A stretch of DNA of 64,000 nucleotides. It comes from a virus. Made by a program: the position numbers and the translations under genes. Below the pieces are notes generated by a model. The model made no database searches. It saw only the letters and a list, made by a program, of their open reading frames with translations, and was not told the DNA's origin. The first letter of the stretch is position 1. Each line of letters begins with the position of its first letter. Shown in pieces: positions 15,992 to 62,618 of this stretch. The stretch spans positions 89,501 through 153,500 of the IMG/VR virus record IMGVR_UViG_3300033153_007754; one strand, written 5' to 3'.

Positions 15992-16048
15992 GAATCATGG
16001 CTTAATTGCCATCTATCTATAACATACGGATTTTTTTAGATTTGTCAA
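15992..16048 (-). promoter_or_regulatory. Sigma70-like promoter with hairpin leader
   Basis: TTGACA (16043-16048), 16 bases, TATGTT (16021-16026), followed by the stem ATGGC AATTAA GCCAT before the ribosome-binding site. Confidence 0.75.
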
Positions 16049-16149
16049 GGGCTTTCTTACTTTTTTTGAAATTTAATTTGGATAAAAAACAATAGTACTA
16101 CACATGCTACCCATATAATACAGGAAATTAAAGTGAAATTAAGTTTTAT

Positions 16150-18127: not shown

Positions 18128-18194
18128 GTTTACCCACAAAAAATTAACTATGTGTATAATATCATAAGACTTAAATTTAAGGAATTAAATTGAT

Positions 18195-18971
18195 TTATTT
18201 AGTTTTTCTGAATGACTTTTTAATATCAAAACCAGCTTTTTTTATTTTAGTGTTATTACAGACTTCTGGTATGTTTTTTTCATTAAATCTTGCCGTATAC
18301 ATCAATATTTCCTGATATGCTTCAGTGTGTTCAACTGGTGCATTTATAAATTTTAATGGTATATTTTCTGATACACTCCAAATGGATTCTTCTGGTTTAA
18401 CGTAGTTTGGTTTAACAGGAAAATACGCCCATGAAACATTGCCGTTTTCACCTATTGGAAAAGCATTAAATATAATATTCAAAGAATAAACTTTATTTTT
18501 CATACAATATTCATCAAACACTTTTTTATTTAATATTTTATTAATATTTTTAAAATATTTTTGGTTTTGTCTTGCTTCATATTTATATAAATCATCAATA
18601 TCATAAAAAAATGGACTCACACCCCTACGTTCTTTACGTAATGTCATATAATGATAATAAAGATTTTTAAATCTATCATTTATCTCATAAAAGAATTCGT
18701 TTTTTGGGATTTCCGCACCATCTTTCTCAAAAACTATATAAGGATAGAATTTTCCACAAAAAAACAACACACCCGTTAATAACCCAATATTATCATAATA
18801 TTGCATTTTAGGGATGGCATCCCTATCTGATATAAAAGTGTCAAGTTCTTTTTCTTTCATATCTGTTACATTATTAAAAACCCGTCTTATATTAGTTTCC
18901 TGATAATCATATGCATAAAACATATAATCATAGAAATCATTGTAATTAGAATGTAATACTTTATTTTTCAT
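18195..18971 (-). CDS. Unknown protein
   Basis: 258 residues, rich in Tyr, Phe and Asn (FYDYMFYAYDYQETNIRRVF), soluble, no recognised motif. A 67-base gap with no clear terminator separates it from the next operon. Function unknown. Confidence 0.65.
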   Translation of the reverse strand: MKNKVLHSNYNDFYDYMFYAYDYQETNIRRVFNNVTDMKEKELDTFISDRDAIPKMQYYDNIGLLTGVLFFCGKFYPYIVFEKDGAEIPKNEFFYEINDRFKNLYYHYMTLRKERRGVSPFFYDIDDLYKYEARQNQKYFKNINKILNKKVFDEYCMKNKVYSLNIIFNAFPIGENGNVSWAYFPVKPNYVKPEESIWSVSENIPLKFINAPVEHTEAYQEILMYTARFNEKNIPEVCNNTKIKKAGFDIKKSFRKTK

Positions 18972-19036
18972 ATTTTCCTTCTACTATTTTTTTGAGTTTA
19001 ACCCAGAGATAAAGGGCTATAAGGGATAGTACTATA

Positions 19037-19426
19037 TTAATCATTTCTAACAAGAAAAAATTGTGACTTCTCATCAATATAATTTTTACCCACATAACAC
19101 CTTTTTTTGGTTTTTCTGTCTATAATACCTGTAACCAAACTACCATTATTAAATATAATTTTATCACCTATTTTTAAATTTTTATAATCAGGCAATTTAT
19201 CTAAATTATCTGGTAAAATAATTGTGTTATGTTGCCCTGAATGGAATAAAAATCTTTTATTGTTATCTAAAGTAGAATACACCACTATCAAACATTTTTT
19301 TTGAGATGGTGAAACCCCTACTTTACATATAGATAAACCTTTTCCACGGTTATATGTGCCTGTCCCATTTTGTGTTATAATAACCTTTGTGTCAACTTTT
19401 GCTGTCATAATATCAATGTTTTTCAT
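19037..19426 (-). CDS. Unknown beta-rich protein
   Basis: 129 residues behind AGGGAGTGA. Short strands and turns, e.g. NLKIGDKIIFNNGSLVTGII, like an SH3-type or OB-type barrel. Own sigma70-like promoter without the hairpin leader. Function unknown. Confidence 0.65.
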   Translation of the reverse strand: MKNIDIMTAKVDTKVIITQNGTGTYNRGKGLSICKVGVSPSQKKCLIVVYSTLDNNKRFLFHSGQHNTIILPDNLDKLPDYKNLKIGDKIIFNNGSLVTGIIDRKTKKRCYVGKNYIDEKSQFFLVRND

Positions 19427-19453
19427 ACTTCACTCCCTTAAAAACATATAAAC

Positions 19454-19482
19454 AGTATATAAGACAATTTCCAATATGTCAA
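19454..19482 (-). promoter_or_regulatory. Sigma70-like promoter
   Basis: TTGACA (19477-19482), 17 bases, TATACT (19454-19459), reading into the gene that starts at 19426. Confidence 0.8.
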
Positions 19483-19486
19483 GTTA

Positions 19487-19696
19487 TTAATAAGTTTTCC
19501 CATAAATAAAACGACCAAACACCTTTAAGAAAATACCCACTACCATATCAAATAAAAATAAACCGATATAAAGCACAACAAAGGCAATTATAATTGCAAA
19601 AGTTCCAGCCCAACCTAATTGTGAAGCACCTACAATTTTAAGTACAATCATAAATATTTGTATTAAAAATAATAATTCAATCAATTTTTCCTCCAT
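19487..19696 (-). CDS. Small two-helix membrane protein
   Basis: 69 residues with two hydrophobic helices (LIELLFLIQIFMIVLKIVG and TFAIIIAFVVLYIGLFLFDMVVGIFL). Begins within the end of the upstream DUF5662-like gene. Size and topology would fit a holin-like or superinfection protein, but nothing proves it. Confidence 0.6.
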   Translation of the reverse strand: MEEKLIELLFLIQIFMIVLKIVGASQLGWAGTFAIIIAFVVLYIGLFLFDMVVGIFLKVFGRFIYGKTY

Positions 19697-20238
19697 ATTT
19701 CGTTAATTAACATATAAATAGTATTTTCTTGTTGTGTAGTAAAAGAAGCTTTAGTATTAATAAATCTTTCAGCCCAAATACATGGTGACTTATTAAATTC
19801 TTGTGATAGTGCACACCAATCACAAACCATTTCTGCCATTGATGGGTAATCCATTGTTGTTGCATCCACAATATTACCAGAACCCAATTCACCAATATTA
19901 AAATTTTTATCCCAAAACAGTGGATTATGTTTGTTGGTTGTCATATGATGGAATCTAGCTTGTTTGAATTCTTCCTTTATTTTATCATTAACAACATAAT
20001 CCACTGTTTCATTTAATCTTTTTGATTCATGCAAATCTGTTAATAAAATATAAGGTTCAAGCTCAATTTTAGAAAACTTACTTCCATCATGTTTTTTAAT
20101 TTCTTTAAATTCATCAGGTGTTATTAACCCTAAGTCAACCATTTTTTTAGCAAAATGTACAACTAATGCAATGTGTATAGCTGTACGTTTTACGAAATAT
20201 TCCATCATTTCACGTGTTGTATGCTTACTACATTCCAT
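19681..20238 (-). CDS. DUF5662-like protein
   Basis: 185 residues. Pattern HIALVVHFAKKMVDLGLITP, FHHMTTNKHNPLFW and DYPSMAEMVCDWCALSQEF recalls the DUF5662 family, whose His/Asp residues look like a metal site of an HD-type helical fold. Found in many phages, with no known activity. GAGGTGG precedes the start. Overlaps the genes on both sides. Confidence 0.65.
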   Translation of the reverse strand: MECSKHTTREMMEYFVKRTAIHIALVVHFAKKMVDLGLITPDEFKEIKKHDGSKFSKIELEPYILLTDLHESKRLNETVDYVVNDKIKEEFKQARFHHMTTNKHNPLFWDKNFNIGELGSGNIVDATTMDYPSMAEMVCDWCALSQEFNKSPCIWAERFINTKASFTTQQENTIYMLINEIWRKN

Positions 20239-20702
20239 CACACCACCTCATTTAATATTTCAAGTATCTTTTCTTCATTATTAAAATCAAATAAATTCGG
20301 ATTAACATAAAAATTATTAGTAAAACAATTAATGTATTTACCACACTTTAATATTTCACCATCAAAACTTTTTAGTCTTAACTTATCTTCATGTTTTACA
20401 AGCATAAATTTTGTCTTAAATACTTGTTGTCTTAATTTATTTAATTCATTTACCATTTTTTTTGTTAATTTATCAGGTTTTACAGCACTATATACATCTA
20501 ATAAGGTTAGTTTTTTTACGCTTAATATATTATCTTTATCAATAAATATTTTATCACCATCTTCAACATCAATACGTTTGGCTTCTTGTATTAATTTTAT
20601 TTTTTTTCCATTTATTTTAACACCTTTTTCTGTCAATACTTTATTTATAGCATCACCATAAACACATGTTAAATAACCATATAAATTAATCACAGTATTC
20701 AC
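20238..20702 (-). CDS. Unknown protein, possibly S4-like N-terminus
   Basis: 154 residues. The N-terminal INKVLTEKGVKINGKKIKL...VEDGDKIFID resembles an S4-type RNA-binding loop but is short of a firm match. The C-terminal half is helical and basic. Overlaps neighbours on both sides in a tight operon. Confidence 0.55.
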   Translation of the reverse strand: MNTVINLYGYLTCVYGDAINKVLTEKGVKINGKKIKLIQEAKRIDVEDGDKIFIDKDNILSVKKLTLLDVYSAVKPDKLTKKMVNELNKLRQQVFKTKFMLVKHEDKLRLKSFDGEILKCGKYINCFTNNFYVNPNLFDFNNEEKILEILNEVV

Positions 20703-20979
20703 TCCTTTCTTTTGCCATTTTATAAATTTGTTTGATAACTAAAACATTCAATAAATCTATATAGAAATCTGTAAAATTGACAACCTCTTTCACGCTATAA
20801 TCACTTGTCTCATCAAATTTACTTAAATCATTAAAAAACTCTTTGAATTCATCCAAAAGCGTTTCAGAATCAAGCTTGTTTGTAAAATACCCATCAACAC
20901 CACACCCAAGCAGTAGGTTAAACCTTTTTTTTGTATCTTCTATGATTTTTACAAATAACACATATTCCAAATCTTCCAT
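20686..20979 (-). CDS. Unknown small acidic protein
   Basis: 97 residues, helical, Asp/Glu-rich, overlapping the next gene by 17 bases. First gene of the 20.98-19.49 kb operon. No motif recognised. Confidence 0.55.
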   Translation of the reverse strand: MEDLEYVLFVKIIEDTKKRFNLLLGCGVDGYFTNKLDSETLLDEFKEFFNDLSKFDETSDYSVKEVVNFTDFYIDLLNVLVIKQIYKMAKERSEYCD

Positions 20980-21053
20980 AATTTCCCCATTATAAAAAAG
21001 GATTGAAAAAATTCAATCAGGTTATTATAAGTTTTTTGTGATATTTAATAAAT

Positions 21054-22166
21054 TTATTTTTTTAGAATGGTTTTGATTTCTAGTGCTATCTTTGCGTTAC
21101 TATGTTTTTGTATATCTTTTATATCAATTTCGTTCCCATCAGCATCAATAACCAAATCACAATTAATTTCATATTTACCATCCAACTCACTAATAAAATC
21201 TTTTGTTGCATCAGAATGTATAATTGTGATAAATTTAGATATTTCCTGATGTGATTTTACACCACCTTCTCTTGATATAATAGAGTTAATTCTGTGTGTT
21301 GTGATATAAGCAGAATAAATAGGGATTAAAGGATTATTGAATTTCACTTTTTTATTACTATTCTTTTTATTAACACCACTTTTATCATTAAATTTAATAG
21401 ATTTCTTTTTAATATAATAAGTGTTTGCACCATTGAATTTTAAATCATATGGCTTAATTACAATACCTTCTATCATATCACTACCATAAAGGCTTTTTGC
21501 GTTCTCAACATCAAATTCAAGGGCTTCTTTTAATGTTTTAACACCATAATCTTTAATATAATATTCAGATAATCCCAATTCATTAAATAATTCTTTAGTT
21601 TTTTTAGGACTTATTAATTCACCATCCAAAAATAAATCATAAAATACTATTTGTTTATGTTTTGAATATCTAATTTCTTTCTGTATACCATCACCAAACA
21701 TTTCACATTCTAATACAATATGTTTGTGTTTATTTTTATAAAAATCTGCAATAGTGTTTATAACATTTTGATAGTCTTTCACTACATTTTTATGTTCAAA
21801 AAAGTTAATGTTTTCACTTAAATACATAGTTCTTTTACCATAATCAACCACCATTTCTTGACCATCAAAAAATATTGATATTGCAAAATGTGTTCCATGA
21901 ATTTTAGATGTTAAAATCCATTCTTGATTGTTATTAGTATTTATTAAAAGTTTATCTAATTTAGTGTTATAATGATTACCAATTGAGCTGTATTTTCTAA
22001 ATGGAATTAATGTCAATTCACCATTTATTTTTTTATGGATAATACCACTCAATAGAATTCCACAATTAGAACATTTTTTATTGGTAATTTTTCTTTTAAA
22101 TTCATTTAAATCACCAATATTTACAATTTTACTTTCACCACAACTACAATTAATTACATAATTCAT
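21054..22166 (-). CDS. Rnl2-type RNA ligase with N-terminal zinc ribbon
   Basis: 370 residues. Seals RNA breaks through a covalent Lys-AMP. Motif I is SKIHGTHF with Lys88 as nucleophile, the Kx(H/D)G form of Rnl2-type ligases. Motif III is IVFYDLFL, motif IV EGIVIKPY and motif V YIKKKSIKF. Ahead of it, Cys7/Cys9 and Cys32/Cys35 form a likely zinc ribbon not present in T4 Rnl2. The C-terminal 100 residues are a separate helical domain. Likely role is repair of host- or phage-induced RNA cleavage. Own promoter with a hairpin leader, so probably early. Confidence 0.85.
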   Translation of the reverse strand: MNYVINCSCGESKIVNIGDLNEFKRKITNKKCSNCGILLSGIIHKKINGELTLIPFRKYSSIGNHYNTKLDKLLINTNNNQEWILTSKIHGTHFAISIFFDGQEMVVDYGKRTMYLSENINFFEHKNVVKDYQNVINTIADFYKNKHKHIVLECEMFGDGIQKEIRYSKHKQIVFYDLFLDGELISPKKTKELFNELGLSEYYIKDYGVKTLKEALEFDVENAKSLYGSDMIEGIVIKPYDLKFNGANTYYIKKKSIKFNDKSGVNKKNSNKKVKFNNPLIPIYSAYITTHRINSIISREGGVKSHQEISKFITIIHSDATKDFISELDGKYEINCDLVIDADGNEIDIKDIQKHSNAKIALEIKTILKK

Positions 22167-22177
22167 AAAAACCTCCT

Positions 22178-22227
22178 GATGGGATAATTCCCATTATAAT
22201 AATATTTTATTATGTATTTTTTGTCAA
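22178..22227 (-). promoter_or_regulatory. Sigma70-like promoter with hairpin leader
   Basis: TTGACA (22222-22227), 17 bases, TATTAT (22199-22204), then ATGGGA ATT ATCCCAT just before CAGGAGG. The hairpin differs in sequence from the other modules but not in position. Confidence 0.7.
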
Positions 22228-22232
22228 GTTTT

Positions 22233-22604
22233 TTAAAATATCAAGAAAAGAATTGATATTGTATTAATGATTATATGAAAAGTGTTGTCTATTATTATCA
22301 TCAACCATGTTGATAAGAAGGGTGGCGTTTTTTCACCATAACCGAAATTAGTTTTACCCCAACTCCAATTAACCAGTTTAATCCAGTAAACCGCAAGCCT
22401 AAACCTATCAATCAAAAAATGTGTGGAAAATATTACAAATAAAGCTAAGGTAAAACCAGTAATAAAATAAAATAATGCAGTATATAAACCAGCATGTAAT
22501 AATGCAATCCATGTTTTTTTTGTTTTATTATTTGCAATCCAACTATTTTGTAACAAATAATCCCCGACCAAATGAAATAATAAACTTAAGGCTATTTTAC
22601 TCAT
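22233..22604 (-). CDS. DUF3307 membrane protein
   Basis: 123 residues. HLVGDYLLQNSWIANNK, then helices including IALLHAGLYTALFYFITGFTLALFVIFSTHFLIDRF, the pattern of DUF3307 membrane proteins with conserved His and Asp in the membrane. Common in phages and bacteria, function unknown. Four-base overlap with the upstream gene. Confidence 0.75.
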   Translation of the reverse strand: MSKIALSLLFHLVGDYLLQNSWIANNKTKKTWIALLHAGLYTALFYFITGFTLALFVIFSTHFLIDRFRLAVYWIKLVNWSWGKTNFGYGEKTPPFLSTWLMIIIDNTFHIIINTISILFLIF

Positions 22605-22918
22605 TTATCACCACCAATTAAGATATTAAAATATGCATCCCAGTCTATAGTATGTTCCAATTCAGCCCCTCCATAAACATTGTTTTTACCAACATAAAAT
22701 TTAAAATTATCACTATCAAAAACAAACCAATTTCCACATAAAGTAAATTTTTTACGTTCTTTACTATTTTCAACTCTCACACCTCTTGTTTCAAAACCTT
22801 TTTTTAATAGATATGCTTCCAAATTTTTAGGCGTAAACAATACTTTTATATATGCTGTTTTAATATTAACTTTAAAACCTTTTTTTAAATTTTCAATCAA
22901 TTTATTAATTTTTTTCAT
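22601..22918 (-). CDS. Unknown small protein
   Basis: About 105 residues. Start taken at the ATG after GAGAGGTATTTTAAAA. Basic N-terminal helix, then a beta-rich body with WFVFDSDNFKFYVGKNNVYGG. Overlaps both neighbours. Function unknown. Confidence 0.55.
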   Translation of the reverse strand: MKKINKLIENLKKGFKVNIKTAYIKVLFTPKNLEAYLLKKGFETRGVRVENSKERKKFTLCGNWFVFDSDNFKFYVGKNNVYGGAELEHTIDWDAYFNILIGGDK

Positions 22919-23360
22919 TTTTAAAATACCTCTCAATTAAATTATCAACAGTAATGTTTCTATATCCATCAGCACCCTTCTTTTTTAGGGATACTGCGCC
23001 TGTATTATTCCATGTAAACACCCTTAAATATCTTTTAGTGTCCTTATTCAAGATATCAATAAAACCGCTGCCACTGTCGTATTTCATATAGTAATTACCC
23101 TCGAATCCTCTTAGTTTTTTATACCCAGAATTGATTTTAGTGTTTATGTCTTTTGTTTCAACGCCTTCGACGTCAGTTAAAGCTTGAAAATCAACTCTTG
23201 AATTAATCATAAATATCATTTTATGGTCTCCTGTTACTATTCCATAATGTTCATTTAACAAGTAAGTACAACCCGTTATACCAACTTTGTTTTCATCCTT
23301 AAATAATTCACTAAATTCCATTTCTTCTGTATTGTTTCCTATTATTTTTAATAACCTCAT
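22905..23360 (-). CDS. Unknown protein
   Basis: 151 residues, beta-rich (FEGNYYMKYDSGSGFIDILNKD), no motif recognised. Start overlaps the upstream stop by four bases, so co-translated. Confidence 0.6.
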   Translation of the reverse strand: MRLLKIIGNNTEEMEFSELFKDENKVGITGCTYLLNEHYGIVTGDHKMIFMINSRVDFQALTDVEGVETKDINTKINSGYKKLRGFEGNYYMKYDSGSGFIDILNKDTKRYLRVFTWNNTGAVSLKKKGADGYRNITVDNLIERYFKNEKN

Positions 23361-24061
23361 TTTAACCCCTTTGATTTTGTTATCAATCGTTGTGTATATC
23401 TTTTAACATTATCGACTGGAAAATGTTGTTCTAAATGTTCAAAAACATAATTTACGTTTACGTCATTTGTTTTATTTTTATCATTCGGAAACATAAAGGT
23501 AAGAATAAGTACCATCACATCCAGCATTTCCTCCCATAGCATACCAGATTTTTTATTTATATCAAAAATACGATTTATCGTATTCCTTGCATCTTCATAG
23601 TAATTTACAGACACACTTAATTCAATTTTACCATCATTTTTTATAATTACATTATGGATGCCAACATCAGGTATTAATATGTTAACATCTTGTTGTTTTA
23701 CTAAAATTGTATCTGTTAATATTAAATCATCATATTTAATTTTACCAACAATTGAATCAGAATCATCAATCATATCTTTTTGGAAAATAATACCTATATT
23801 CCCCATCATTGCATTAAAATTAACACATTCATCAACAAAATATATATCAGAACCATATTCAAGTGGTACGGGTGAGCCAACATCATCATTAATGTTATGT
23901 AAAATTAACACACTACCTTTATAAATTTCATTATCCGTTATTTGATAAAAGATGTTTTCCGCTGTACATTTCGGACTAATCTCAGACCAAACTTCAAAAA
24001 AATTATCACTTTCTTCGTATTCATCTTTAAAGTTTGTTTTGAACTGTCTTATTACTATCAT
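23357..24061 (-). CDS. Unknown protein
   Basis: About 234 residues, start at the ATG after GTGAGGTATCAAAT. First half beta-rich and acidic, C-terminal half helical (MLWEEMLDVMVLILTFMFP). Probably first gene of the operon ending with the DUF3307 gene. Function unknown. Confidence 0.6.
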   Translation of the reverse strand: MIVIRQFKTNFKDEYEESDNFFEVWSEISPKCTAENIFYQITDNEIYKGSVLILHNINDDVGSPVPLEYGSDIYFVDECVNFNAMMGNIGIIFQKDMIDDSDSIVGKIKYDDLILTDTILVKQQDVNILIPDVGIHNVIIKNDGKIELSVSVNYYEDARNTINRIFDINKKSGMLWEEMLDVMVLILTFMFPNDKNKTNDVNVNYVFEHLEQHFPVDNVKRYTQRLITKSKGLK

Positions 24062-24101
24062 ATTTGATACCTCACAAAAAAAGATATAATAACACAATAA
24101 T

Positions 24102-24497
24102 TTAATTTAAGAAATATTTAATGAAATCTGTTATTTTAATTAAAACTAAAATGCTAGCATAATTATCACCACCCTTTACAGTTCTGGGTTTTTTCTTTTT
24201 TATATATTCTTTTAATACTTCAACTGGAATCATTAATGAAAATTTGTGTTCACCCTTTTTTGTAAAGTTTTGCACCCAAATTTCTGATTCTGTTGTTATT
24301 ATACCCGAATCTTTACCCCAAGACGAAACCTCTATTACCATATTACCAGATTTAACCCATATATCCTTTTCTGTTTTAACTTCACATTTTGTTACACCAG
24401 AAAATATATTATCTACATATTCTTCCCATTGTCGACCAAAAGCCAAATCGATATCAAATTTCTTTAAAACTTTAATGTCTTTACTATCGTTTAGCAT
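24102..24497 (-). CDS. Putative PD-(D/E)XK-type endonuclease
   Basis: 131 residues. KCEVKTEKDIWVKSGNMVIE and WGKDSGIITTESEIWV follow the pattern seen in small phage nucleases, where a Glu-x-Lys and a downstream Glu bind metal and 'GN..IE...G..SGI.TT' is the conserved core. A role in recombination or replication repair beside the helicase is plausible. No experimental anchor. Confidence 0.6.
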   Translation of the reverse strand: MLNDSKDIKVLKKFDIDLAFGRQWEEYVDNIFSGVTKCEVKTEKDIWVKSGNMVIEVSSWGKDSGIITTESEIWVQNFTKKGEHKFSLMIPVEVLKEYIKKKKPRTVKGGDNYASILVLIKITDFIKYFLN

Positions 24498-24500
24498 ACC

Positions 24501-24830
24501 CTATACCTCCTCATATGTTTCTAAAATAATACCACTGCTATATCCACCTTTTTTCTTAATTTTATTTGAATATAAATCTAAGACATCTTCGATTACCATT
24601 TCCGGATTTACCAATAAAAATAAACTAATAACATCACATGCAAATGTACTAAAATCTGTTTTTGATGTTAAATCAAGGTGTTTTATGTCATCATTTATTT
24701 TTTTCATTACTTCTTTGTTAATATCCCCTTTAAGTGGTTTAATTGTGCATTTACCACCCTTTTCAACTATCATTTGCGGAACATTGTTTCTAACTAAAAG
24801 ATTATAAACCGCTATTTTATTGTTTTCCAT
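24501..24830 (-). CDS. Unknown small protein
   Basis: 109 residues, mixed helix/strand, preceded by AAGGTGG. Sits between helicase and nuclease genes with gaps of a few bases. Function unknown. Confidence 0.6.
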   Translation of the reverse strand: MENNKIAVYNLLVRNNVPQMIVEKGGKCTIKPLKGDINKEVMKKINDDIKHLDLTSKTDFSTFACDVISLFLLVNPEMVIEDVLDLYSNKIKKKGGYSSGIILETYEEV

Positions 24831-24846
24831 TTCACCACCTTAAAAA

Positions 24847-26283
24847 TTATTTTCTAATATACTGATTCATACCACTTAATGTAATTGTTTTTTTAACTTC
24901 TTTTTTGGGTTCAGCACTAATACTATTATCAATACCACCTAATTCATTATCATTTCTATCTAAAGACACTGTTTGTCTTATATAATCCACATGTGGATAA
25001 AAGAGTACTTCATTTTCATGACCCATTCTATTTTTTAATAGTTTCATACCAAGTCTTCTTAGTTTCACTAATTCACCATTTTTAAAGCCACCAATAATAA
25101 CATCTGCATGGTCATTAATTGCTTTGGAATCACCAATTTCATCAAGAGATATGTCAACTGGGTTGGCTCTATTACCGGCTCTTGTTGTTTGTGCACCAGA
25201 AAATATTATTGCATCCCTATCAATTCCAATTCCACGTAATACAGCAGCTATTCCACCAATTCTTTCATATGAATTATCACCGAAAGTTGCTTTCATAATT
25301 CCTAAATAATCTATTGCAATTAAATCAGGCTTAAAACCTTTTTTAACATATAATTGTTCTAAATAAGCTTCTAATTTATATGTTGTTAGGGAAAATGGTG
25401 TAAACTGTCTTAATACTAGTCTTTCATTCGTTTTGTATTGTGTACGTACCCTATCCCTTAAATCCTTGTATGATTGTTTATCCATTTTTTTTATTTCAGC
25501 TTCAGGTACACCACTTAAAGACCAATCAAATCTAGCAGCAATTTTATTAACTGGTATTTCTAAACTAACATATAATACTTTTAATTCAGGATTACTTTTT
25601 AACATTGCAGCAGCTTCAGATATCATAACCATCGTTTTCCCTACATGTGTTCGCATCATAAAAATATTTAATGTTCCCTTTTCGTATCCACCTTGCGTTT
25701 TAGAATTTACCCAATCAATACCAGATGGATATTTATGTCCAGATTGTGTATAATAATCATACATCTCTTCCCAATTTGAATGATATTCAGTACCTAACTC
25801 TAAATTAAAATTAATTTTAGCAACTTCTTTAAATAATTCATTGATTTTAAAAACAGCATCATGAGCATTTTCTAATTTAAAATCAATTTTTTTATACAAC
25901 TTACTTGCTGTTAGCATTGCGTCGTGTGTTGCTGAAACAGTTACAAATTTTTCAATCAAATGCAATACAAACTTTTCAGTTCCACTCAAAATACCTATTC
26001 TTTCATTTTTAATTTGTTCAATTAATTTATCAATATTTGCAACACTAATTGCACCATTATGTATTAATATGTTACTTAATTGTTCAAAATTTGGAAGTGA
26101 TTCATAATCCTTATAAAAGTTATTAATTGCATCCCAAACCAATGATATGTTTTTAGTTTCATTCTTCACATAGCTAAGTTTTACGTTATCATATAACATT
26201 CGATACATTGTTTCACCCTTTTCAGGTGTATCCAATATGTATTTAATCAATTTGCTATAAGATAATACAGAATCTTGTATCAT
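24847..26283 (-). CDS. DnaB-type replicative helicase
   Basis: 478 residues, unwinds DNA at the phage fork. The C-terminal RecA-like domain shows a Walker A-like NIFMMRTHVGKT (about residues 206-217), LKVLYVSLEIP (motif H1a), PDLIAIDYLGIM (Walker B) and IIFSGAQTTR, with a DnaB-family end containing KNRMGHENEVLFY. The P-loop lacks its first Gly (MRTHVGKT), as in T4 gp41-like proteins with divergent loops. N-terminal 150 residues are helical, as in DnaB. No separate primase gene is visible in this window. Confidence 0.88.
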   Translation of the reverse strand: MIQDSVLSYSKLIKYILDTPEKGETMYRMLYDNVKLSYVKNETKNISLVWDAINNFYKDYESLPNFEQLSNILIHNGAISVANIDKLIEQIKNERIGILSGTEKFVLHLIEKFVTVSATHDAMLTASKLYKKIDFKLENAHDAVFKINELFKEVAKINFNLELGTEYHSNWEEMYDYYTQSGHKYPSGIDWVNSKTQGGYEKGTLNIFMMRTHVGKTMVMISEAAAMLKSNPELKVLYVSLEIPVNKIAARFDWSLSGVPEAEIKKMDKQSYKDLRDRVRTQYKTNERLVLRQFTPFSLTTYKLEAYLEQLYVKKGFKPDLIAIDYLGIMKATFGDNSYERIGGIAAVLRGIGIDRDAIIFSGAQTTRAGNRANPVDISLDEIGDSKAINDHADVIIGGFKNGELVKLRRLGMKLLKNRMGHENEVLFYPHVDYIRQTVSLDRNDNELGGIDNSISAEPKKEVKKTITLSGMNQYIRK

Positions 26284-38589: not shown

Positions 38590-39282
38590 ATGAAGATTTC
38601 AATAAAATTTAAGTTCACAATACAAATGGATGAATACTGGATAAGCAAACAATACAGAAGAGGTATCGTATCTCTTTTAAAAGATTTATTTGATTCTGCT
38701 GGAATTGATTTATTTAAAACAAACCAGAGAAAGCCGTATACGTTTTCAGTCAAATTCCCTAAATTCGATAAAACAACCAAAACCAATTTCATAACTAGTG
38801 AAAATTGGTTTTGGGTAAACTTTTCAGCTTATGATGATGCAATAGCAAAAAGTATAAAGTCTGAAATATATAAGATTAAATTTTTATCTGCCTTTGGTAA
38901 AGAAATATATGTAGATAAAGTAACTATTAAAGAACAAGATATAATTACAAAAAATGTTATTTTATTTAAAACATTTTCTCCTATTTTAGTAAAGGATGAA
39001 AATGGTAAAAGATTTTTAAATGATTTTAATAAAGATGTTTTTAAACAAAGGTTAATTACCAATATTAAAAATGGATATGAACAATTCACCACCGAAAAAG
39101 CAGGAAGGGTTGATGTATCTTTTAAAAAAGGTAATATGACTGTTGCTGAAACTTATGGTGGTGAAATAGGTTATAAAGGAATCATTAAACTTTTTGCACA
39201 TTCTGATGTTTTACAATTTGTTTATGAAAGTGGAATTGGAAATAAAACAGGCCAAGGCTACGGAATGTTGGAGATATTATGA
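38590..39282 (+). CDS. cas6: Cas6 family pre-crRNA endonuclease
   Basis: 230 residues, start after GAGGTATAAAC. Double-RRM RAMP fold: an N-terminal MKISIKFKFTIQ strand, and the C-terminal glycine-rich GIGNKTGQGYGMLEI that defines Cas6. Cas6 cuts CRISPR repeats and hands crRNA to the effector. Its only His is in LFAHSDVLQF (near residue 204), not at the N-terminal position of the usual catalytic His, so activity may rely on other residues or be lost. First gene of the operon, overlapping the next by four bases (ATGA). Confidence 0.85.
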   Translation: MKISIKFKFTIQMDEYWISKQYRRGIVSLLKDLFDSAGIDLFKTNQRKPYTFSVKFPKFDKTTKTNFITSENWFWVNFSAYDDAIAKSIKSEIYKIKFLSAFGKEIYVDKVTIKEQDIITKNVILFKTFSPILVKDENGKRFLNDFNKDVFKQRLITNIKNGYEQFTTEKAGRVDVSFKKGNMTVAETYGGEIGYKGIIKLFAHSDVLQFVYESGIGNKTGQGYGMLEIL

Positions 39283-39911
39283 AAACTATTAAATTTATAT
39301 CAAAACATCTAACCAAACTGGATTCTGATGTTAGTGGTAAATGTGCTATTTGTGGGGAAGAACATATTGGTTTCAAACTAAAAAAAGTTCTTTCAGCGAA
39401 TTTTAATGATTGGAAATACATCAAAGATGGTAGTACAAAACATGTTTGTGTTGATTGCCAAAGTTGCTTGGGTTCTAAAAACTTTGATGGAAAAGCATTA
39501 AGAAATTATTCTGTTATTATTACAAAAAAAGAAATTAAAAAAATTAAAAGGTCTGACATATTAGAAGTCATTAGAAATCCATTAAAAGAATTTGTTATTA
39601 TAGTTAATTTTTCTCAAAAAAAACACGCTTTTTGGGATGCAAAAATAAATAACAATAAAAGACACACATATATAGCAACAGACAAGGGAAGTTATATTTT
39701 AAATAATAAAAACTTTTTAGAACTATACAATGATTTATTTACATTGTATGAAATGAAAATAAGTAAAACTGAAATGAGGAGTGGAAAATACAATTTTATA
39801 AATTTAATGAAAAACAATAATATTTTTGATATTGATAATAAAATAAAAAAACAACGAGGTACAAACAATTTTGATTTTGCCATTTGGTTGTTACATAAGG
39901 AGGAAAAATGA
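39279..39911 (+). CDS. csf1: Csf1-like (type IV Cas8-like) protein
   Basis: 210 residues with a four-cysteine zinc site: Cys22/Cys25 (KCAICGEEH) and Cys57/Cys60 (HVCVDCQSC, with Cys63 nearby). In type IV systems Csf1 is the large-subunit replacement with such a zinc finger near the N-terminus. The C-terminal two thirds are Lys-rich helices and strands. Placement between cas6 and csf2 and overlapping starts support the call. Could be another zinc-binding Cas protein. Confidence 0.65.
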   Translation: MKTIKFISKHLTKLDSDVSGKCAICGEEHIGFKLKKVLSANFNDWKYIKDGSTKHVCVDCQSCLGSKNFDGKALRNYSVIITKKEIKKIKRSDILEVIRNPLKEFVIIVNFSQKKHAFWDAKINNNKRHTYIATDKGSYILNNKNFLELYNDLFTLYEMKISKTEMRSGKYNFINLMKNNNIFDIDNKIKKQRGTNNFDFAIWLLHKEEK

Positions 39912-41110
39912 TTAAAGTAGATTACAATTTTACAACAACAACACCAGTTCACACAGGGGCCGACACTAATATGGGAACACTAAAGTCTTTAAGAAGACAG
40001 AAGGTTATATTAAAAAAGGCAAAGACTGAAAAAACAAAATACAACACTGAAATGAGAAGGGAAGCATTAAGAGATATTCTTTTTGCAGTTTATAGTAAAA
40101 TTGATAAAGACCAAATTAAAGGAAAAAGATTAATGAAGATTTGGGATGAATTTCATTCCAAAGTTTTACAAGCTGCAACAGCATCAAATAAAATTCAGTT
40201 CTTAAACCGATTATCTCAACTTTGGGATATTAAATCGATTGATGACACCCTGATTTTACAACATTTGGACTATATGTCAGACAGTGAATTATTACAAACT
40301 GTGAGAGACGAAAGCATTTATCTTGTTTTATCTGTTAGAAAATTAAGAGATGACAAAAAGAATAAAGTAAAGAAGACAAAAAATAATCTATTTAGTAACA
40401 TTGAAGAAAAAAAAGAGGTTGAAATTAAAAAATATTATGACCTTGTTCCAGCAATTTCAGGGAATTCAATTAGAGGTATTTTAAGAAGAATTTCCATGAA
40501 GGATTTTGTTGATAGGGTTGGTATAACAAAACTACCAAAAGACTTGTATCATATTCTATTTACTGGTGGAGTACTAGATAGTTCAACCCAATTTGAAAAC
40601 TTAGATAGAAGAGAATCTTTTATAAAAAATAACCCACTTGTAGCCGTTTTTGGTTCTGCTATTGGAAATATGACAATTGAAGGTTTATTATCTGTTGGAT
40701 GGGCTTACCCAAAATGTTTAGAGATGGGTACAAGTGATAAATCTTACTGGACTTATCTTGATACAGTTTTTCAAACAAGAAGGGATGATTCAGAAATTCA
40801 ACACTTTTTGGAATTAGAACAAGGGCATCCTGGAACATCACAAATGAAATATGAATATGAGGTTTTTGCAACAGGAACACCTTTTACACATGCATTTAGA
40901 TTCATGGAACTTGATGATATTACAACATCAGCTTTTTGGAGGGTATTGGAGTTATTTAAAGAAAACAGTAGTATTGGTGGAATGAAAGCAATTGGTAACT
41001 CATATATAGATTTATCAGAAATCAAAATACCAAAAAATGCAAGTAAATTATATTTGGATTATTTAGAAAAAAATAAAAAAACAATAAAAGATTTTTTCGG
41101 GAACTTATAA
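39908..41110 (+). CDS. csf2: Csf2, type IV Cas7 backbone protein
   Basis: 400 residues. Would coat the crRNA as the repeating backbone of the effector. YNFTTTTPVHTGADTNMGTL at the start and PAISGNSIRGILRR at residues 181-194 are the RAMP motifs of Cas7/Csf2, and SSIGGMKAIGNSYIDL near residue 360 is the late Gly-rich loop. Residues about 28-165 are a charged helical insertion. Strong AAGGAGG site inside the csf1 end. Adjacent csf1, csf3 and cysH-like genes fix the type. Confidence 0.82.
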   Translation: MIKVDYNFTTTTPVHTGADTNMGTLKSLRRQKVILKKAKTEKTKYNTEMRREALRDILFAVYSKIDKDQIKGKRLMKIWDEFHSKVLQAATASNKIQFLNRLSQLWDIKSIDDTLILQHLDYMSDSELLQTVRDESIYLVLSVRKLRDDKKNKVKKTKNNLFSNIEEKKEVEIKKYYDLVPAISGNSIRGILRRISMKDFVDRVGITKLPKDLYHILFTGGVLDSSTQFENLDRRESFIKNNPLVAVFGSAIGNMTIEGLLSVGWAYPKCLEMGTSDKSYWTYLDTVFQTRRDDSEIQHFLELEQGHPGTSQMKYEYEVFATGTPFTHAFRFMELDDITTSAFWRVLELFKENSSIGGMKAIGNSYIDLSEIKIPKNASKLYLDYLEKNKKTIKDFFGNL

Positions 41111-41838
41111 TGTTTTATTCAGAAAAACAACTTAATTATAAAATAGATGGTGCAATTAAAACAATTAATACAGCATTGGAACAAGTAGCAAATCCATACA
41201 TTGCTTGTAGTTGGGGAAAAGATAGCATTGTGATGTTATGGTTAATAAGAAAAATTGACAAGAATATCCCAGTTGTTTACATGAATTCTAATTACTCATT
41301 TCCAGATAATTATGAATTCAGAGATAGGATGTTAAAAGAATGGAATATAAAACATTATATTGAACTTCCACCCGTTTCTGATTATAAAGAAATAGTTGAA
41401 ACTTTTGGTTTACCTGGTATTTCCAGAAAATCACAAGACCAAGAAAAAGTTGTTTCTAAATTAAAAAAACAATTAAGACCTGAAATTAAAGAATTTGATT
41501 CAGTGTTTTTAGGTATAAGAGCATCTGAAAGTAGGGCAAGACAAAATATGATAAGATATTCAGGTAAAATAAACACCCTAAAAAATGGAATTACAAAAAT
41601 AATGCCAATTGCAGACTGGACTTTCAAAGAAATGTGGCAAATTGTAAAGGAAAATAATATACCAATGAATACCATATATTCAAAAGATAAATTTTCATCA
41701 CCTGAATGGATAAGAAATTCAGGAATACTATCAACTGATGGGGCTTCGTCTGGAAAAATACAATGGATTAAATATTATTATCCAGCAATTTACAGAAAGT
41801 TATCAGTTGATTATCCGGAGGTAAAAGGGTATGTATAA
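41110..41838 (+). CDS. cysH: CysH-like PP-loop protein of the CRISPR operon
   Basis: 242 residues. YIACSWGKDSIVMLWLI carries the PP-loop (SWGKDS, residues 34-39) that binds ATP or PAPS, and FLGIRASESRARQNMI is the conserved Arg motif of the PAPS-reductase family. The C-terminal ECGLH-type catalytic Cys motif of true reductases is absent. CysH-like proteins are a known accessory of type IV-B CRISPR loci. Inserted between csf2 and csf3, overlapping both (one and eight bases), so translation is coupled. Role unknown. Confidence 0.85.
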   Translation: MFYSEKQLNYKIDGAIKTINTALEQVANPYIACSWGKDSIVMLWLIRKIDKNIPVVYMNSNYSFPDNYEFRDRMLKEWNIKHYIELPPVSDYKEIVETFGLPGISRKSQDQEKVVSKLKKQLRPEIKEFDSVFLGIRASESRARQNMIRYSGKINTLKNGITKIMPIADWTFKEMWQIVKENNIPMNTIYSKDKFSSPEWIRNSGILSTDGASSGKIQWIKYYYPAIYRKLSVDYPEVKGYV

Positions 41839-42466
41839 GATAACATTTAAAATGGTTTCACCTGTTGTTTTAATGGATAATGTCACCTTTGATTCAATAC
41901 TTGCATATTGTGTATATAGTCATTATAGAAAAATTACTGATATTAAAACATCTGGTGGAAAAGAAATTGATGAAAGCAAACAAGACATACCAGTAACAAA
42001 ACATAAGGATGGTTTTTATCTTGCCAGTTGGGATATTACAACAGAAGAACACGAAAGTGTTGAAAGATGGCGGAAAAGATGGGATAACACAAATGATAGA
42101 CTTGCTGATTTTAAAAAAGCAAAAAGAAAAATAGACACTGCACGAGGTAAATATAAATCATATGATATGCCAATTGTAGTAAAAAGCATTGATGAAATAA
42201 GTTTTTATTTTAAATCAAAGGAGGTGGGAAAAGTAAGTTTTTTCATAAATAACTACCTTGTTGGGATTGGTAAGAAAGTTAAAATGGGGTATGGATGGTT
42301 TTCTGGGTTTGAAATAGAAAAAGTAAAAGATAGTGATGTTTTATATTATAGACCAACACCCAAAAACTTTAAATCACCACTTAAAACGATTGATGGTTTT
42401 GGTGGAATTAAACCACCATATTGGCACAATCAACAAGACATAAAAATTCCATCACTACATTTCTAA
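41831..42466 (+). CDS. csf3: Csf3, type IV Cas5 protein
   Basis: 211 residues. RAMP protein: YKITFKMVSPVVLMDNVTFD at the N-terminus and the Gly-rich loop LVGIGKKVKMGYGWFSGFEI near residue 150. Csf3 caps the 5' handle of the crRNA in type IV complexes. Start follows GGAGG within the cysH-like gene. Last gene of the operon, with no helicase, Cas11, adaptation genes or array after it. Confidence 0.78.
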   Translation: MYKITFKMVSPVVLMDNVTFDSILAYCVYSHYRKITDIKTSGGKEIDESKQDIPVTKHKDGFYLASWDITTEEHESVERWRKRWDNTNDRLADFKKAKRKIDTARGKYKSYDMPIVVKSIDEISFYFKSKEVGKVSFFINNYLVGIGKKVKMGYGWFSGFEIEKVKDSDVLYYRPTPKNFKSPLKTIDGFGGIKPPYWHNQQDIKIPSLHF

Positions 42467-45976: not shown

Positions 45977-46497
45977 TATAATACCTCATCAATTACTTCA
46001 AAAATAGATTTCATATATTGCCAATAAACTTCAAGGTAACTAACATATTTTTTAATAAACATGTTGTTTGTGTATTCCCTTTTATTTTCGATACCCACGA
46101 AAAGATAGTTTTTAATATAATCTGTTATTTTATCCTGCATAGATTCATATTCCAATCTACTAGGAAATATGAATCTGATATTAAAATGAATACCAATACA
46201 ATTATTATTTGCATTCATTATTTTATATTTTGCAATATTTACATATTTAACATCATTTTTCTCAATATTATTGTAATCTAAATAAGTTTCAAATGGTCCA
46301 AATAACCTATCCATCAAGGAAGCATCATCAAAACCTGAATAAGACATATTTAATTTTACGTTAAATTTTAAAATAGTAGTTTTTTTTCCTATTTTCTTTG
46401 AAATGAATTTAAATTTATTTTCATATTTCATTTCACCAAAATCTTCAATTTTCTTTTTTCTTCTATATTTTTTACTAAATATATTAAATAAACCCAT
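45976..46497 (-). CDS. Unknown protein of a three-member paralogous set
   Basis: 173 residues. Starts GLFNIFSKKYRRKKKIEDFG, then a beta-strand core (LKFNVKLNMSYSGFD, CIGIHFNIRFIF). The next gene (LHLIKLFNEEYRKNH...KFGSMELEN, IDFNIQLNFHH, VIGVNFFVKLII) and the one at 56640-57170 have the same order. Function unknown. Confidence 0.6.
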   Translation of the reverse strand: MGLFNIFSKKYRRKKKIEDFGEMKYENKFKFISKKIGKKTTILKFNVKLNMSYSGFDDASLMDRLFGPFETYLDYNNIEKNDVKYVNIAKYKIMNANNNCIGIHFNIRFIFPSRLEYESMQDKITDYIKNYLFVGIENKREYTNNMFIKKYVSYLEVYWQYMKSIFEVIDEVL

Positions 46498-46502
46498 CTT
46501 CT

Positions 46503-47063
46503 TTATCCCCTTAATAAAACAGCATTTAACATTTTTCTAATTTCATTAGTATACACACCACTTACTTTAACCCAAGATATACTATCCTGATACCATTTTA
46601 CTTGTTGTAATAAGCGGGATTCTGTGTATCCTTTTTTTTGTTTTAATGCTTTAAATACATAATTATTAAAATAATCTTGAAAGTTATCTATAATCACATT
46701 TAAATCCAGTTCACCAAGATGTAATATTATTAATTTCACAAAAAAGTTAACACCAATAACATTTCCTTTATTATTTTTAATTTCATCTAAATAATATACA
46801 TTATACTCTATTGTTTCACTTAACTTTAAGGAAACATTTTTTACATACATCTTAAAATCTTCAAGAATACCATTTATAGTGTATTTAATGTTAGTGTGAT
46901 GGAAATTTAATTGAATGTTAAAATCAATAACACTGAAATCCTTGCCTTTTTTTGTTAATTTTGGTTCATATTCTACAAAGTTTTCAAGCTCCATAGAACC
47001 AAACTTATTGATATTATGATTTTTTCTATATTCTTCATTGAATAATTTAATTAAATGTAACAC
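46503..47063 (-). CDS. Unknown protein of the same paralogous set
   Basis: About 186 residues, read from a GTG start with GGAGG seven bases upstream, rather than a longer frame lacking such a site. Same fold order as the gene at 45976-46497. Own strong promoter. Function unknown. Confidence 0.6.
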   Translation of the reverse strand: MLHLIKLFNEEYRKNHNINKFGSMELENFVEYEPKLTKKGKDFSVIDFNIQLNFHHTNIKYTINGILEDFKMYVKNVSLKLSETIEYNVYYLDEIKNNKGNVIGVNFFVKLIILHLGELDLNVIIDNFQDYFNNYVFKALKQKKGYTESRLLQQVKWYQDSISWVKVSGVYTNEIRKMLNAVLLRG

Positions 47064-47091
47064 GATTCCTCCTACCAAATCATACAACATT

Positions 47092-47120
47092 ATAATAGAC
47101 AATCATCACCGATTTGTCAA
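47092..47120 (-). promoter_or_regulatory. Sigma70-like promoter
   Basis: TTGACA (47115-47120), 17 bases, TATTAT (47092-47097). It overlaps the end of the small membrane protein gene. Confidence 0.75.
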
Positions 47121-47270
47121 GCTTTTTTTAATATTTCTATAAAAGGAATAATTATTTAAATTAAATAAAATATAATTATAATACCCTGTTAATACATATA
47201 TTGGTGTTACAATTACAGCAATAATTAACCCCATAATCACCAATAGCAACCCGTTTACTACATTTCCCAT
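47106..47270 (-). CDS. Small membrane protein
   Basis: 54 residues with a hydrophobic helix NGLLLVIMGLIIAVIVTPIY and a Tyr/Asn-rich tail. Clear ribosome-binding site AAGGTGG eight bases before ATG. Its 3' end overlaps the -35 box of the next gene. Function unknown. Confidence 0.55.
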   Translation of the reverse strand: MGNVVNGLLLVIMGLIIAVIVTPIYVLTGYYNYILFNLNNYSFYRNIKKSLTNR

Positions 47271-47295
47271 ATTTACACCACCTTAAACGTAAAAA

Positions 47296-47355
47296 TGCGA
47301 CTATCTGCTAATTGTCTGTTTTGTGATGACTTATAAATATTAGCAAATAGTCGCA
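47296..47355. repeat. 17-bp inverted repeat with one mismatch
   Basis: TGCGACTAT.TGCTAAT (47296-47312) is mirrored by ATTAGCA.ATAGTCGCA (47339-47355) around a 26-base loop, with another GACTAT at 47361. It lies in a stretch of about 150 bases without a gene. Could be a recombination site, operator or RNA hairpin. No U-tract, so not a standard terminator. Confidence 0.7.
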
Positions 47356-47426
47356 AATATGACTATAATCGACACCCACTTTATTATTCGTTAAAAACTC
47401 GATGCCACCAAAAAATCATGATTTAA

Positions 47427-47612
47427 TTAAGGAAAATAAAATGTGTATATGGTGTTGACTTTAACATACTTATTCTTATTACCCCAAAAGTGAACCAACA
47501 TGAAATTAAATATTACCAAGCCATACTTACCATTCCGGTCTGTAATCAGTACCGGTGTAATTTTAATTATACGAGATAACATTCTAATAAGTAAATCAAT
47601 CAACCACATCAT
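47427..47612 (-). CDS. Weak candidate small membrane protein
   Basis: 61 residues, amphipathic or hydrophobic N-terminus (WLIDLLIRMLSRIIKITPVL). The nearest AAGG is 13 bases from the ATG, too far for a strong site, so the frame may not be translated. Confidence 0.3.
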   Translation of the reverse strand: MMWLIDLLIRMLSRIIKITPVLITDRNGKYGLVIFNFMLVHFWGNKNKYVKVNTIYTFYFP

Positions 47613-47659
47613 ATTTTTAATATACCTTTTTTTTATTATTTAATAAAGTTTTCAATTAA

Positions 47660-47782
47660 CTAAACCCCTACAAATTTATTACAACAATCATTTTCACCAT
47701 CAACCTGTTTTTTGGTAACACTACAATAACCTTTTTTGTAGAACCTACATTGTTTACATTTATTCACAGTTTTAATTAACAT
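47660..47782 (-). CDS. Small Cys-cluster protein
   Basis: 40 residues with CKQCRFYKKGYC and a CC pair, a probable zinc-binding knuckle like that at 55.4 kb (CKQCKYIRMVV). Its ATG overlaps the stop of the MORN-like gene (ATGTTAA), so it is translated by coupling. Confidence 0.5.
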   Translation of the reverse strand: MLIKTVNKCKQCRFYKKGYCSVTKKQVDGENDCCNKFVGV

Positions 47783-48063
47783 ATTTTTTTACCATCCTTA
47801 TATTTATTATTAAACATTAATAAACCGTTTTTATCCCAGCCAGCAACATTACCATCTAAAACACCTTTTTTATAAAAAGAAACTCTATATTTATTACCAT
47901 TTTCATACCACTCAGTACACATTCCATTAAATAACCCATTTTTAAAATTATATTCTCTTTTTTTATTACCATTTTTATATTTTAAAACATGTTTTCCTGT
48001 AAAAGGTGTCTTAGAAACTGGGTAATATATACCATTTTTATTTATTAAATTATTAAATTCCAT
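47776..48063 (-). CDS. MORN-like repeat protein, YwqK type
   Basis: About 95 residues, four repeats of the kind KYKNGNKKREYNFKNGLFNG. Such repeats make a beta-hairpin ladder. Start lies in the end of the next upstream member. Bacterial relatives are annotated as YwqK-type antitoxin or MORN-variant proteins, true function unknown. Confidence 0.75.
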   Translation of the reverse strand: MEFNNLINKNGIYYPVSKTPFTGKHVLKYKNGNKKREYNFKNGLFNGMCTEWYENGNKYRVSFYKKGVLDGNVAGWDKNGLLMFNNKYKDGKKIC

Positions 48064-60862: not shown

Positions 60863-60936
60863 TTATTCCACCTAAAAAAATTACATTATTATATCATTAT
60901 CCATATAATTTATAAAATAGTATATTCTCCATTGAT

Positions 60937-60996
60937 GGTTTTACCGTGGGTGGTTTTTCCACCTATGGTAAAACCATTTACAGAAAACCTACCAAC
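60937..60996 (+). repeat. Iteron-like array, four 15-bp units
   Basis: GGTTTTACCGTGGGT, GGTTTTTCCACCTAT, GGTAAAACCATTTAC and a weaker AGAAAACCTACCAAC, head to tail. It lies just before the promoter of the structured RNA and after the small gene, so it can act on either. Confidence 0.75.
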
Positions 60997-61037
60997 CATA
61001 AATAAGTTTAACTTTTTTAGAAATATTTATTTTTTTC

Positions 61038-61066
61038 TTGATTAAATAAGTAAAATCTGTTATTTT
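61038..61066 (+). promoter_or_regulatory. Promoter of the structured RNA
   Basis: TTGATT (61038-61043), 17 bases, TATTTT (61061-61066), 12 bases before the first paired G of the RNA. Confidence 0.55.
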
Positions 61067-61078
61067 GTTTCTATTATT

Positions 61079-61500
61079 GGTTGCACGGGATGTTATCCTG
61101 TGATATTGAAGCTCTTTAAGGGTGTGTGAACATACAAAGAAATGCAACCAACACACATACCCTTAATACCCATATTGTGGTGATATGGGATGCAAATTAA
61201 GACATAACATGTAAACAAGCTTAAACCCTCTATTATAAAGGTTTTGTTTGAATGTAACTTCCCCATAAAAGTTACAATTTTACTGTTTGGTGAACATAAG
61301 CAACTTACCTATAAACAGTAGAATAAAACAGGATGAAGTGATTACGTTTAAATATTTTATACCCGTGTAGTGTGAAAGATGCGTGACATATTGTATACAT
61401 GGCAATATGACTTGGTTATACAAGACTCTGTATTCATAGCTACACCATACCAAGATAAAATAAGCAATTATTTTTCCACGTAATCTTCAATAATATTTTT
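61079..61500 (+). ncRNA. Large structured RNA, family unknown
   Basis: About 420 nt, richer in GC than the flanks, no coding frame of note. Pairings seen: GGTTGCA (61079-61085) with TGCAACC (61143-61149) encloses one strand of TTAAGGGTGTGTG (61116-61128) whose partner CACACATACCCTTAA (61152-61166) lies outside, an H-type pseudoknot. Hairpins: 61086-61100, 61169-61189, 61213-61249, 61254-61275, 61281-61320. Basal stem GATTACGT (61340-61347) with ACGTAATC (61478-61485) holds TTTTAT/ATAAAA, GTGTAG/CTACAC and two inner hairpins. A T run (61495-61501) follows the basal stem. Strand is inferred from promoter and T run. tmRNA, RNase P and tRNA signatures are missing. Confidence 0.72.
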
Positions 61501-61949
61501 TAAGATGAATTCTTTAAATCGTTAGATATATGTTTAAAAAATATGAAATTTCTTTCCCTCAATTAATTAAAACTACCATAACTGGTTAAAGTTACATTTA
61601 TGTATCTACCAGAAAGGGGGGTATAAAGAACCGTCCAGTATTACTATAATAGTATATATAAATACTACTATATAGTATCATTGTATAATATTATTATAAG
61701 TATTACTTAAATATCACTTTTAAATAAACTAATTTAAAAAAATAATAAATTTATATATATAAAAAAAGTTAATAAATTAAAAAACAATAAAAAATAAAAT
61801 AAAATTATTATTATTAAGATATTTCAAAAATAAAGATGTACTCAATCGTCCATCTTATATTTTCATAATATCTATAGAAAGTATATTACTTTTAGTTTTA
61901 CTTATAATATTATTATATATAATATATATAGTAATTAGGAGTTAAAAAA
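61501..61949. other. AT-rich gap without gene
   Basis: About 450 bases, A+T well above 85 per cent from 61620 on, with short palindromes such as ATACTACTATATAGTAT near 61663. No frame longer than a few codons with a ribosome-binding site. Together with the 15-bp arrays it would melt easily, as an origin would, but there is no direct proof. Confidence 0.5.
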
Positions 61950-62618
61950 ATGGAAAAATTAAAAAAAGAATTAATAAAAAAACTAAAAAGAAATAAATTT
62001 AAAATATCAATAATTGAAAATATAAATTTTGGAATACAAATTAAAGCATTATATAAAAATAAAAAATATACATTTAGAATATTTAAATCTAAAAAAAAAG
62101 GAATACATATTGATTATTCATTAATAAATGATAAAAAAATAATTAATATGTTTAAAAATAACAAGAAAATGGAACTTAAAAATATTATTAATAATACTAC
62201 TTATAAGTATGATAAAAATGAAATTGGATTTGGATTTTATGAAAATAAATCTAAAAGTATGTTAATATTATCTTCTGTTTATTTACATAATAAAGATATT
62301 TTAGAAAAAATTGATTTGAATGGAATTAGTAAAACATATGATAATAGATTATTAATGAGTTTTTATATTTATATAATAACAAATACTCAATATAAATTAA
62401 ATATTTTTGAAAGTAAAAGATTAGAAAAATTAAGAGATAGATTTGATAATAAAATTGATTTTAATAACTTTTATATTCAGGAAATAGTTAAAAGACAAGA
62501 TTACACATTTAATAAAAATAATATAAACACTGATGAATTTATTATATCTGAAACAGGTTTACATACTAAAATTTCAAAGATATTTTCAAAGACTGTTTAT
62601 AAATTATATAGATATTAA
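61950..62618 (+). CDS. Very AT-rich unknown protein
   Basis: 222 residues, start after TTAGGAG. Unusual composition: nearly all codons AAA, AAT, ATA, TTA, so Lys, Asn and Ile dominate. That is more extreme than the neighbours, which suggests recent arrival or drift. Beta/helix mix, no motif recognised. Confidence 0.65.
   Translation: MEKLKKELIKKLKRNKFKISIIENINFGIQIKALYKNKKYTFRIFKSKKKGIHIDYSLINDKKIINMFKNNKKMELKNIINNTTYKYDKNEIGFGFYENKSKSMLILSSVYLHNKDILEKIDLNGISKTYDNRLLMSFYIYIITNTQYKLNIFESKRLEKLRDRFDNKIDFNNFYIQEIVKRQDYTFNKNNINTDEFIISETGLHTKISKIFSKTVYKLYRY

Follow-up and report, generated by a model that had tools for sequence, protein, structure and literature searches.

ROOL, GOLLD and similar large ornate phage RNAs have, to our knowledge, no known function; ROOL is a homo-octameric nanocage, and in phages both RNAs are often located near tRNA islands. 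Solved structures comprise a 659-nt ROOL and an 833-nt GOLLD (PMC12286853). Other non-coding transcripts act at replication origins. In bacteriophage T4, a promoter is followed at oriF and oriG by an AT-rich unwinding element, and the transcript persists as an R-loop that primes the leading strand; oriE, oriF and oriG lie near sites of transcription divergence and skew shifts (PMC3016281). In ColE1, RNA II has its transcription start 550 bp ahead of the origin and forms a persistent hybrid (PMC5043065). The lactococcal phage c2 (Ceduovirus) needs a non-coding ori transcript, PE1-T, whose length and sequence or structure are critical and which is thought to initiate replication (PMC7150918).

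The RNA considered here was studied in a 64-kb window, that is, the whole stretch of DNA from base 89501 to base 153500 of a virus record with 153,500 bases; coordinates are those of the window unless the record is named.

The phage genome

The record ends in an exact 114-bp direct repeat (record 1-114 = 153387-153500), indicating a genome closed at 153,386 bp. Judged from its genes, the uncultured virus is a T4-related myovirus: the structural genes code for a gp20-type portal, a gp23-type capsid, a tail sheath and a T4-type terminase, and those for a T4-type replisome include polymerase, DnaB-like gp41-type helicase, primase, clamp, clamp loader and SSB; a FEN-type 5'-3' exonuclease is also encoded. 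The gp43-type polymerase is divided into two proteins, whose genes (record 75059-76147 and 80371-82275, minus strand) are arranged with the C-terminal part upstream of the N-terminal part. Capsid and polymerase have ~25-30% identity to the closest phages; the search for relatives with these two proteins turned up nothing but identical pieces of the virus itself, present in two IMG samples only (3300033141 and 3300033148), or distant T4-like phages with at most ~30% identity. No tRNA or tmRNA gene was found by ARAGORN in the scanned genome pieces.

The genome also contains a five-gene type IV CRISPR-Cas operon (38590-42466, plus strand) for Cas6, Csf1, Csf2, a CysH-like PAPS reductase and Csf3, with an internal Cas11-like match at residues 49-158 of Csf2. 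Subtype IV-B is marked by CysH and has been described as having no Cas6 (PMC8175902); the phage operon carries both a CysH-like gene and Cas6. No CRISPR array was detected genome-wide by a scan for exact 14-mers at 40-100 nt spacing, and the repeats that matched were MORN-type protein repeats or GGTTTTACC palindromes. A group of MORN-repeat proteins rich in internal repeats, which is uncommon for a T4-related phage, is encoded at record ~6400-25600 on the plus strand. A TnpB/Cas12f-like protein of 539 aa is encoded at record 46263-47882 (L006:6263-7882, minus strand), and a short ORF just upstream resembles a truncated MerR-type N-terminus, which suggests the remnant of an IS607-type element.

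The non-coding region

The features of the region are the following:

60863-61949, no strand: ORF-free gap, candidate origin region, with leftward genes on its left and rightward genes on its right (ORF listing)
60924-60989, no strand: palindromic hairpin (GATGGTTTTACC...GGTAAAACCAT) upstream of the RNA (sequence, fold)
61038-61066, plus strand: TTGATT-17-TATTTT, a weak promoter-like match, with TG as in an extended -10 (read from sequence)
61077-61500, plus strand: structured RNA, whole (fold energy, pseudoknot scan, pair probabilities)
61496-61501, plus strand: T6 run directly next to the basal stem, where the RNA may have its 3' end (sequence)
61616-61621, plus strand: the genome's sole plus-strand G6 run, where an R-loop may nucleate (genome-wide scan)
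61637-61836, no strand: AT-richest stretch of the genome, candidate DNA unwinding element (9% GC over 200 nt)
61950-62618, plus strand: first rightward gene, 222 aa, without family match (ORF listing, family searches)

The gap is the largest ORF-free one in the 153.4-kb genome and has the structured RNA at its start. Between 60863 and 61949 neither strand has an ORF that reaches 60 aa, the longest frames being of 57 aa and lacking support; the stretch 61079-61500 is therefore non-coding, as the earlier note on this DNA had stated. An 87-aa leftward ORF bounds the gap at 60862, and in the list of 100-aa ATG genes the leftward genes stop at record 149,940 and the rightward ones begin at record 151,450. 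A ribosome-binding-like AGGAG lies just before 61950. The GC content of the RNA, ~30%, is higher than that of the surrounding non-coding DNA.

The GGTTTTACC palindromes occur at only three sites in the genome (60544-60609, 60924-60989 and 6076-6160) and are adjoined by Rha-type genes; two of them flank the 87-aa ORF next to the likely origin. It is possible that they are operators for a phage regulator. The second-largest ORF-free gap (47103-47775, 673 nt) contains a strong hairpin and, on the minus strand, a high-scoring pair of crossing helices, with an overall fold z of only -1.5.

Fold of the RNA

The elements of the predicted fold are listed here:

61077-61085, plus strand: pseudoknot helix A, 5' strand (UUGGUUGCA) (pseudoknot scan)
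61143-61151, plus strand: helix A, 3' strand (UGCAACCAA), 2 nt ahead of the helix B 3' strand
61116-61128, plus strand: pseudoknot helix B, 5' strand (UUAAGGGUGUGUG) (pseudoknot scan, pair probabilities)
61154-61166, plus strand: helix B, 3' strand (CACAUACCCUUAA) (pseudoknot scan, pair probabilities)
61129-61142, plus strand: A-rich pseudoknot loop of 14 nt (AACAUACAAAGAAA), spanning helix A (pseudoknot scan, sequence)
61084-61102, plus strand: hairpin CACGGGAU/AUCCUGUG, of 6 bp if helix A takes 61084-61085 (pair probabilities)
61104-61492, plus strand: basal stem 61104-61111/61485-61492 (UAUUGAAG/CUUCAAUA), closing the multibranched domain (pair probabilities)
61169-61189, plus strand: hairpin CCCAUAUU/GAUAUGGG (pair probabilities)
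61216-61324, plus strand: three successive hairpins, 61216-61250, 61253-61276 and 61277-61324 (mean pair probability 0.83-0.97)
61331-61477, plus strand: branched 3' domain (pair probability 0.1-0.95, depending on context)

The plus strand of 61075-61500 folds with -106.7 kcal/mol (z -5.35), an energy that none of 100 shuffles equalled; with 400 shuffles z was -4.57, while the minus strand of the same stretch reached only -1.9 to -2.1. The better fold of the plus strand, together with the 16 G-U pairs among its 132, favours a rightward RNA. Helix A is formed by 9 bp and helix B by 13 bp, including one G-U, and since their 3' strands are just 2 nt apart the two helices can stack on each other. 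Their summed stacking energy is -39.6 against -24.9 +/- 2.6 in shuffles, none of 400 being as good, and the pseudoknot score ranks third among 712 equal-sized segments of the genome. The predicted 5' end of the RNA falls at the junction of the two helices. Most hairpins are robust across the contexts folded, and within the central domain those in 61216-61324 hold best; the hairpin at 61169-61189 survives in all but the longest context, and an RNA end near 61500-61560 is needed for part of the 3' domain. Thus, the large structured RNA, the A-B-A'-B' pseudoknot, the hairpins and the multibranched domain proposed in the earlier note were all recovered.

The ends of the RNA bear out that proposal only in part. 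The 8-bp basal stem exists and forms only with an RNA end near 61500-61560, its mean pair probability being 0.71-0.93 for such an end, 0.38 for an RNA extended to 61640 and 0.01 for one extended to 61949. A promoter-like start can be read, with TTGATT at 61038-61043, a 17-nt spacer and TG-n-TATTTT ending at 61066, predicting transcription from ~61073-61077; its consensus match is 8/12, under the scan threshold, and by the consensus scan promoter matches in the region are not more frequent than expected by chance. As for the proposed U-run end, T6 is present at 61496-61501, and no canonical intrinsic terminator was found at the RNA end.

Search for related RNAs

Rfam gave nothing over threshold in the 64-kb window or in the remaining 89.5 kb, so that the comparison with known families suggested in the earlier note yielded no match. 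The covariance models of ROOL and GOLLD gave no match at gathering score or at E values up to 10; RNase P RNA, group I and II intron and ribozyme families had no Rfam model match, and no tRNA-like domain (tmRNA or tRNA) was recognized by ARAGORN. In these searches the RNA accordingly had no match to ROOL, GOLLD, tmRNA, RNase P or group I introns, in line with the earlier note. A permissive Rfam scan of 1.5 kb around the RNA listed no large-RNA family; the best matches were microRNA-like, on the neighbouring palindromes, and the rest were at chance level.

No DNA homologues were found in phages and plasmids, except for a 28-nt match at E 2. A viral pattern scan for the pseudoknot returned 12 matches, all due to chance on inspection, and a second one returned none (0 matches); in genome contigs the pattern was found in one Clostridia and one Flavobacterium contig, both by chance. 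These pattern scans require the exact letters of the helices, and diverged homologues would be missed. When the RNA was compared with a leader close to the TnpB gene (GCACGGGAT...TTAAGGGT), the resemblance had exactly the score of shuffles. As far as could be searched by similarity and exact pattern, the RNA is an orphan, and by its sequence it appears to be unlike any described family.

Evidence for a probable replication origin

The cumulative GC skew has its minimum at 61872 (record 151,372) in the raw curve and at 60997 (record 150,497) after detrending, and the cumulative AT skew at 61127 (record 150,627). The skew range is 3614, compared with a maximum of 2002 in 2000 block shuffles, and when only intergenic DNA is considered the minima are at 60997 for GC and 61127 for AT. 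Gene direction changes from leftward to rightward at the RNA locus. Skew in phages partly tracks gene orientation, and here much of it does. At 4-fold degenerate sites the gene-strand effect on the GC skew is 0.115 +/- 0.030; over and above orientation, the arm of the genome contributes an effect of 0.109 +/- 0.030. With orientation removed, the residual 4-fold GC minimum lies at record 139.7 kb, 11 kb from the site, and the residual 4-fold AT signal gives no support to the site.

Downstream of the RNA, in the rightward direction, are both the G6 run, ~115 nt from the RNA and ~540 nt from the predicted start, and the GC minimum; the 450 nt from 61707 have 10.9% GC. No DnaA boxes and no convincing iteron-like direct repeats were found at the site. 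The location of an origin at the RNA site is well supported, although not proven by skew alone, and the position of the RNA at the gene divergence and skew turnover points to a likely role in starting genome replication. T4 itself has several origins, some of which lack such marks.

Comparison with known systems and alternative explanations

The T4 origins oriF and oriG resemble the site in belonging to a related replisome and in combining divergence with a skew shift. The promoter and downstream AT-rich unwinding element of the T4 R-loop origins would be paralleled here by a promoter-like element with a consensus match of just 8/12 and, downstream of it, the AT-richest stretch of the genome. 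The minimal T4 origin measures ~100 bp, and no large structured RNA intervenes there between the promoter and the unwinding element. Phage c2, a small siphovirus of ~20 kb, has its origin in a non-coding region between divergent gene blocks, and the ORF-free site described here is placed likewise; the sequences are unrelated, and no pseudoknotted fold of such kind was found reported for c2. RNA II of ColE1 is a structured non-coding RNA of ~550 nt, and here the predicted start is ~540 nt before the G6 run. It differs in having no sequence match, in that ColE1 needs no AT-rich DNA, and in its antisense RNA I, for which a consensus scan revealed no promoter-like site on the minus strand of 61077-61489.

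The reading that we favour, tentatively and at just short of an even bet, sees in the RNA a non-coding transcript made at an origin of a T4-related phage where replication is initiated by transcription; R-loop priming would be governed by the fold. Computed here were the fold, the excess of the pseudoknot over shuffles, the strand preference, the gap, the skew extremum, the strand switch, the G6 run, the AT minimum and the replisome genes; what we infer is that the region is transcribed, that an R-loop forms and serves for priming, and that the fold exerts control. The promoter just upstream would drive a rightward RNA, whose first 420 nt would fold into the pseudoknotted, multibranched structure; transcription beyond 61500 would enter the G6 run and then the AT-richest stretch, where the transcript would remain hybridised to the template as an R-loop. 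An RNase H/FEN nuclease would trim the RNA, which would then prime the rightward leading strand. The fold would set whether and when the transcript ends near 61500 or reads through to the hybrid, and its change on extension, together with the T6 run, is compatible with such control of termination and read-through. Against this model, the promoter is weak by consensus, and the U run could end the RNA ahead of the G6/AT region, so that read-through would then be needed.

The main rival, to which we give a distinctly smaller chance, is a free-standing, abundant and perhaps oligomeric RNA of the ROOL/GOLLD kind, adjacent to the origin merely because early promoters cluster there. The compact fold with pseudoknot, closing stem and U run straight after it would suit such an RNA, and the need of the basal stem for an RNA end near 61500 fits a discrete species of ~420 nt. 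The likeness is that of large ornate phage RNAs with pseudoknots; however, the RNA is shorter than the 659-nt ROOL and the 833-nt GOLLD (PMC12286853), matches neither model even at E values up to 10, and lies beside a likely origin in a genome with no tRNA genes and hence no tRNA island. The parallel that the earlier note had drawn from size and phage context is thus not sustained, and the skew minimum, strand switch, lone G6 run and AT-richest stretch point to a replication-origin transcript rather than to a ROOL/GOLLD-like RNA. It is rather unlikely that the RNA is a long, structured 5' leader, or an attenuator, of the operon that runs rightward from 61950: it would be on the same strand, upstream of the first rightward gene with its AGGAG, but ~450 nt of very AT-rich DNA separate RNA and gene, and the closing stem is lost on extension to 61949.

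The palindromes and AT-rich inverted repeats around the site would agree with a real origin acting as DNA, its inverted repeats serving as cruciforms or as binding sites for proteins, with an incidental RNA fold; this we consider improbable, as the fold of the plus strand is clearly superior to that of the minus strand and includes 16 G-U pairs, and the pseudoknot requires crossing helices. The lack of detected homologues and the weak promoter would be expected if AT-rich non-coding DNA folded by chance and no RNA were made, which is very improbable given the excess of energy and pseudoknot score over shuffles and a GC content of ~30%, above that of the surrounding non-coding DNA. Finally, since the phage encodes Cas6, Csf1, Csf2, a CysH-like protein, Csf3 and a TnpB-like protein with no CRISPR array detected, one may imagine that the RNA serves as guide or scaffold, either for the array-less type IV Csf complex and its Cas6 or for the TnpB-like protein. 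This is scarcely credible: the cas genes are ~19 kb away and tnpB is also distant, the RNA well exceeds crRNAs and omega RNAs in length, and it has no repeat-spacer layout.

Concluding remarks

If the origin-transcript reading holds, the novelty lies in the RNA itself, transcript-initiated origins being already known. More speculatively, and with a lower probability that makes it unlikely at present, pseudoknotted RNAs of ~420 nt may form a class built into the origins of T4-related phages, with the fold as a switch that directs the transcript to termination or to priming by an R-loop. A review of T4 replication (PMC3016281) counts the factors that set R-loop formation at T4 origins among the open questions. 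If the proposal is true, a large ornate phage RNA would have a definite job at an origin, and a folded RNA placed between promoter, G run and unwinding element would join the question of R-loop formation with that of the ornate RNAs.
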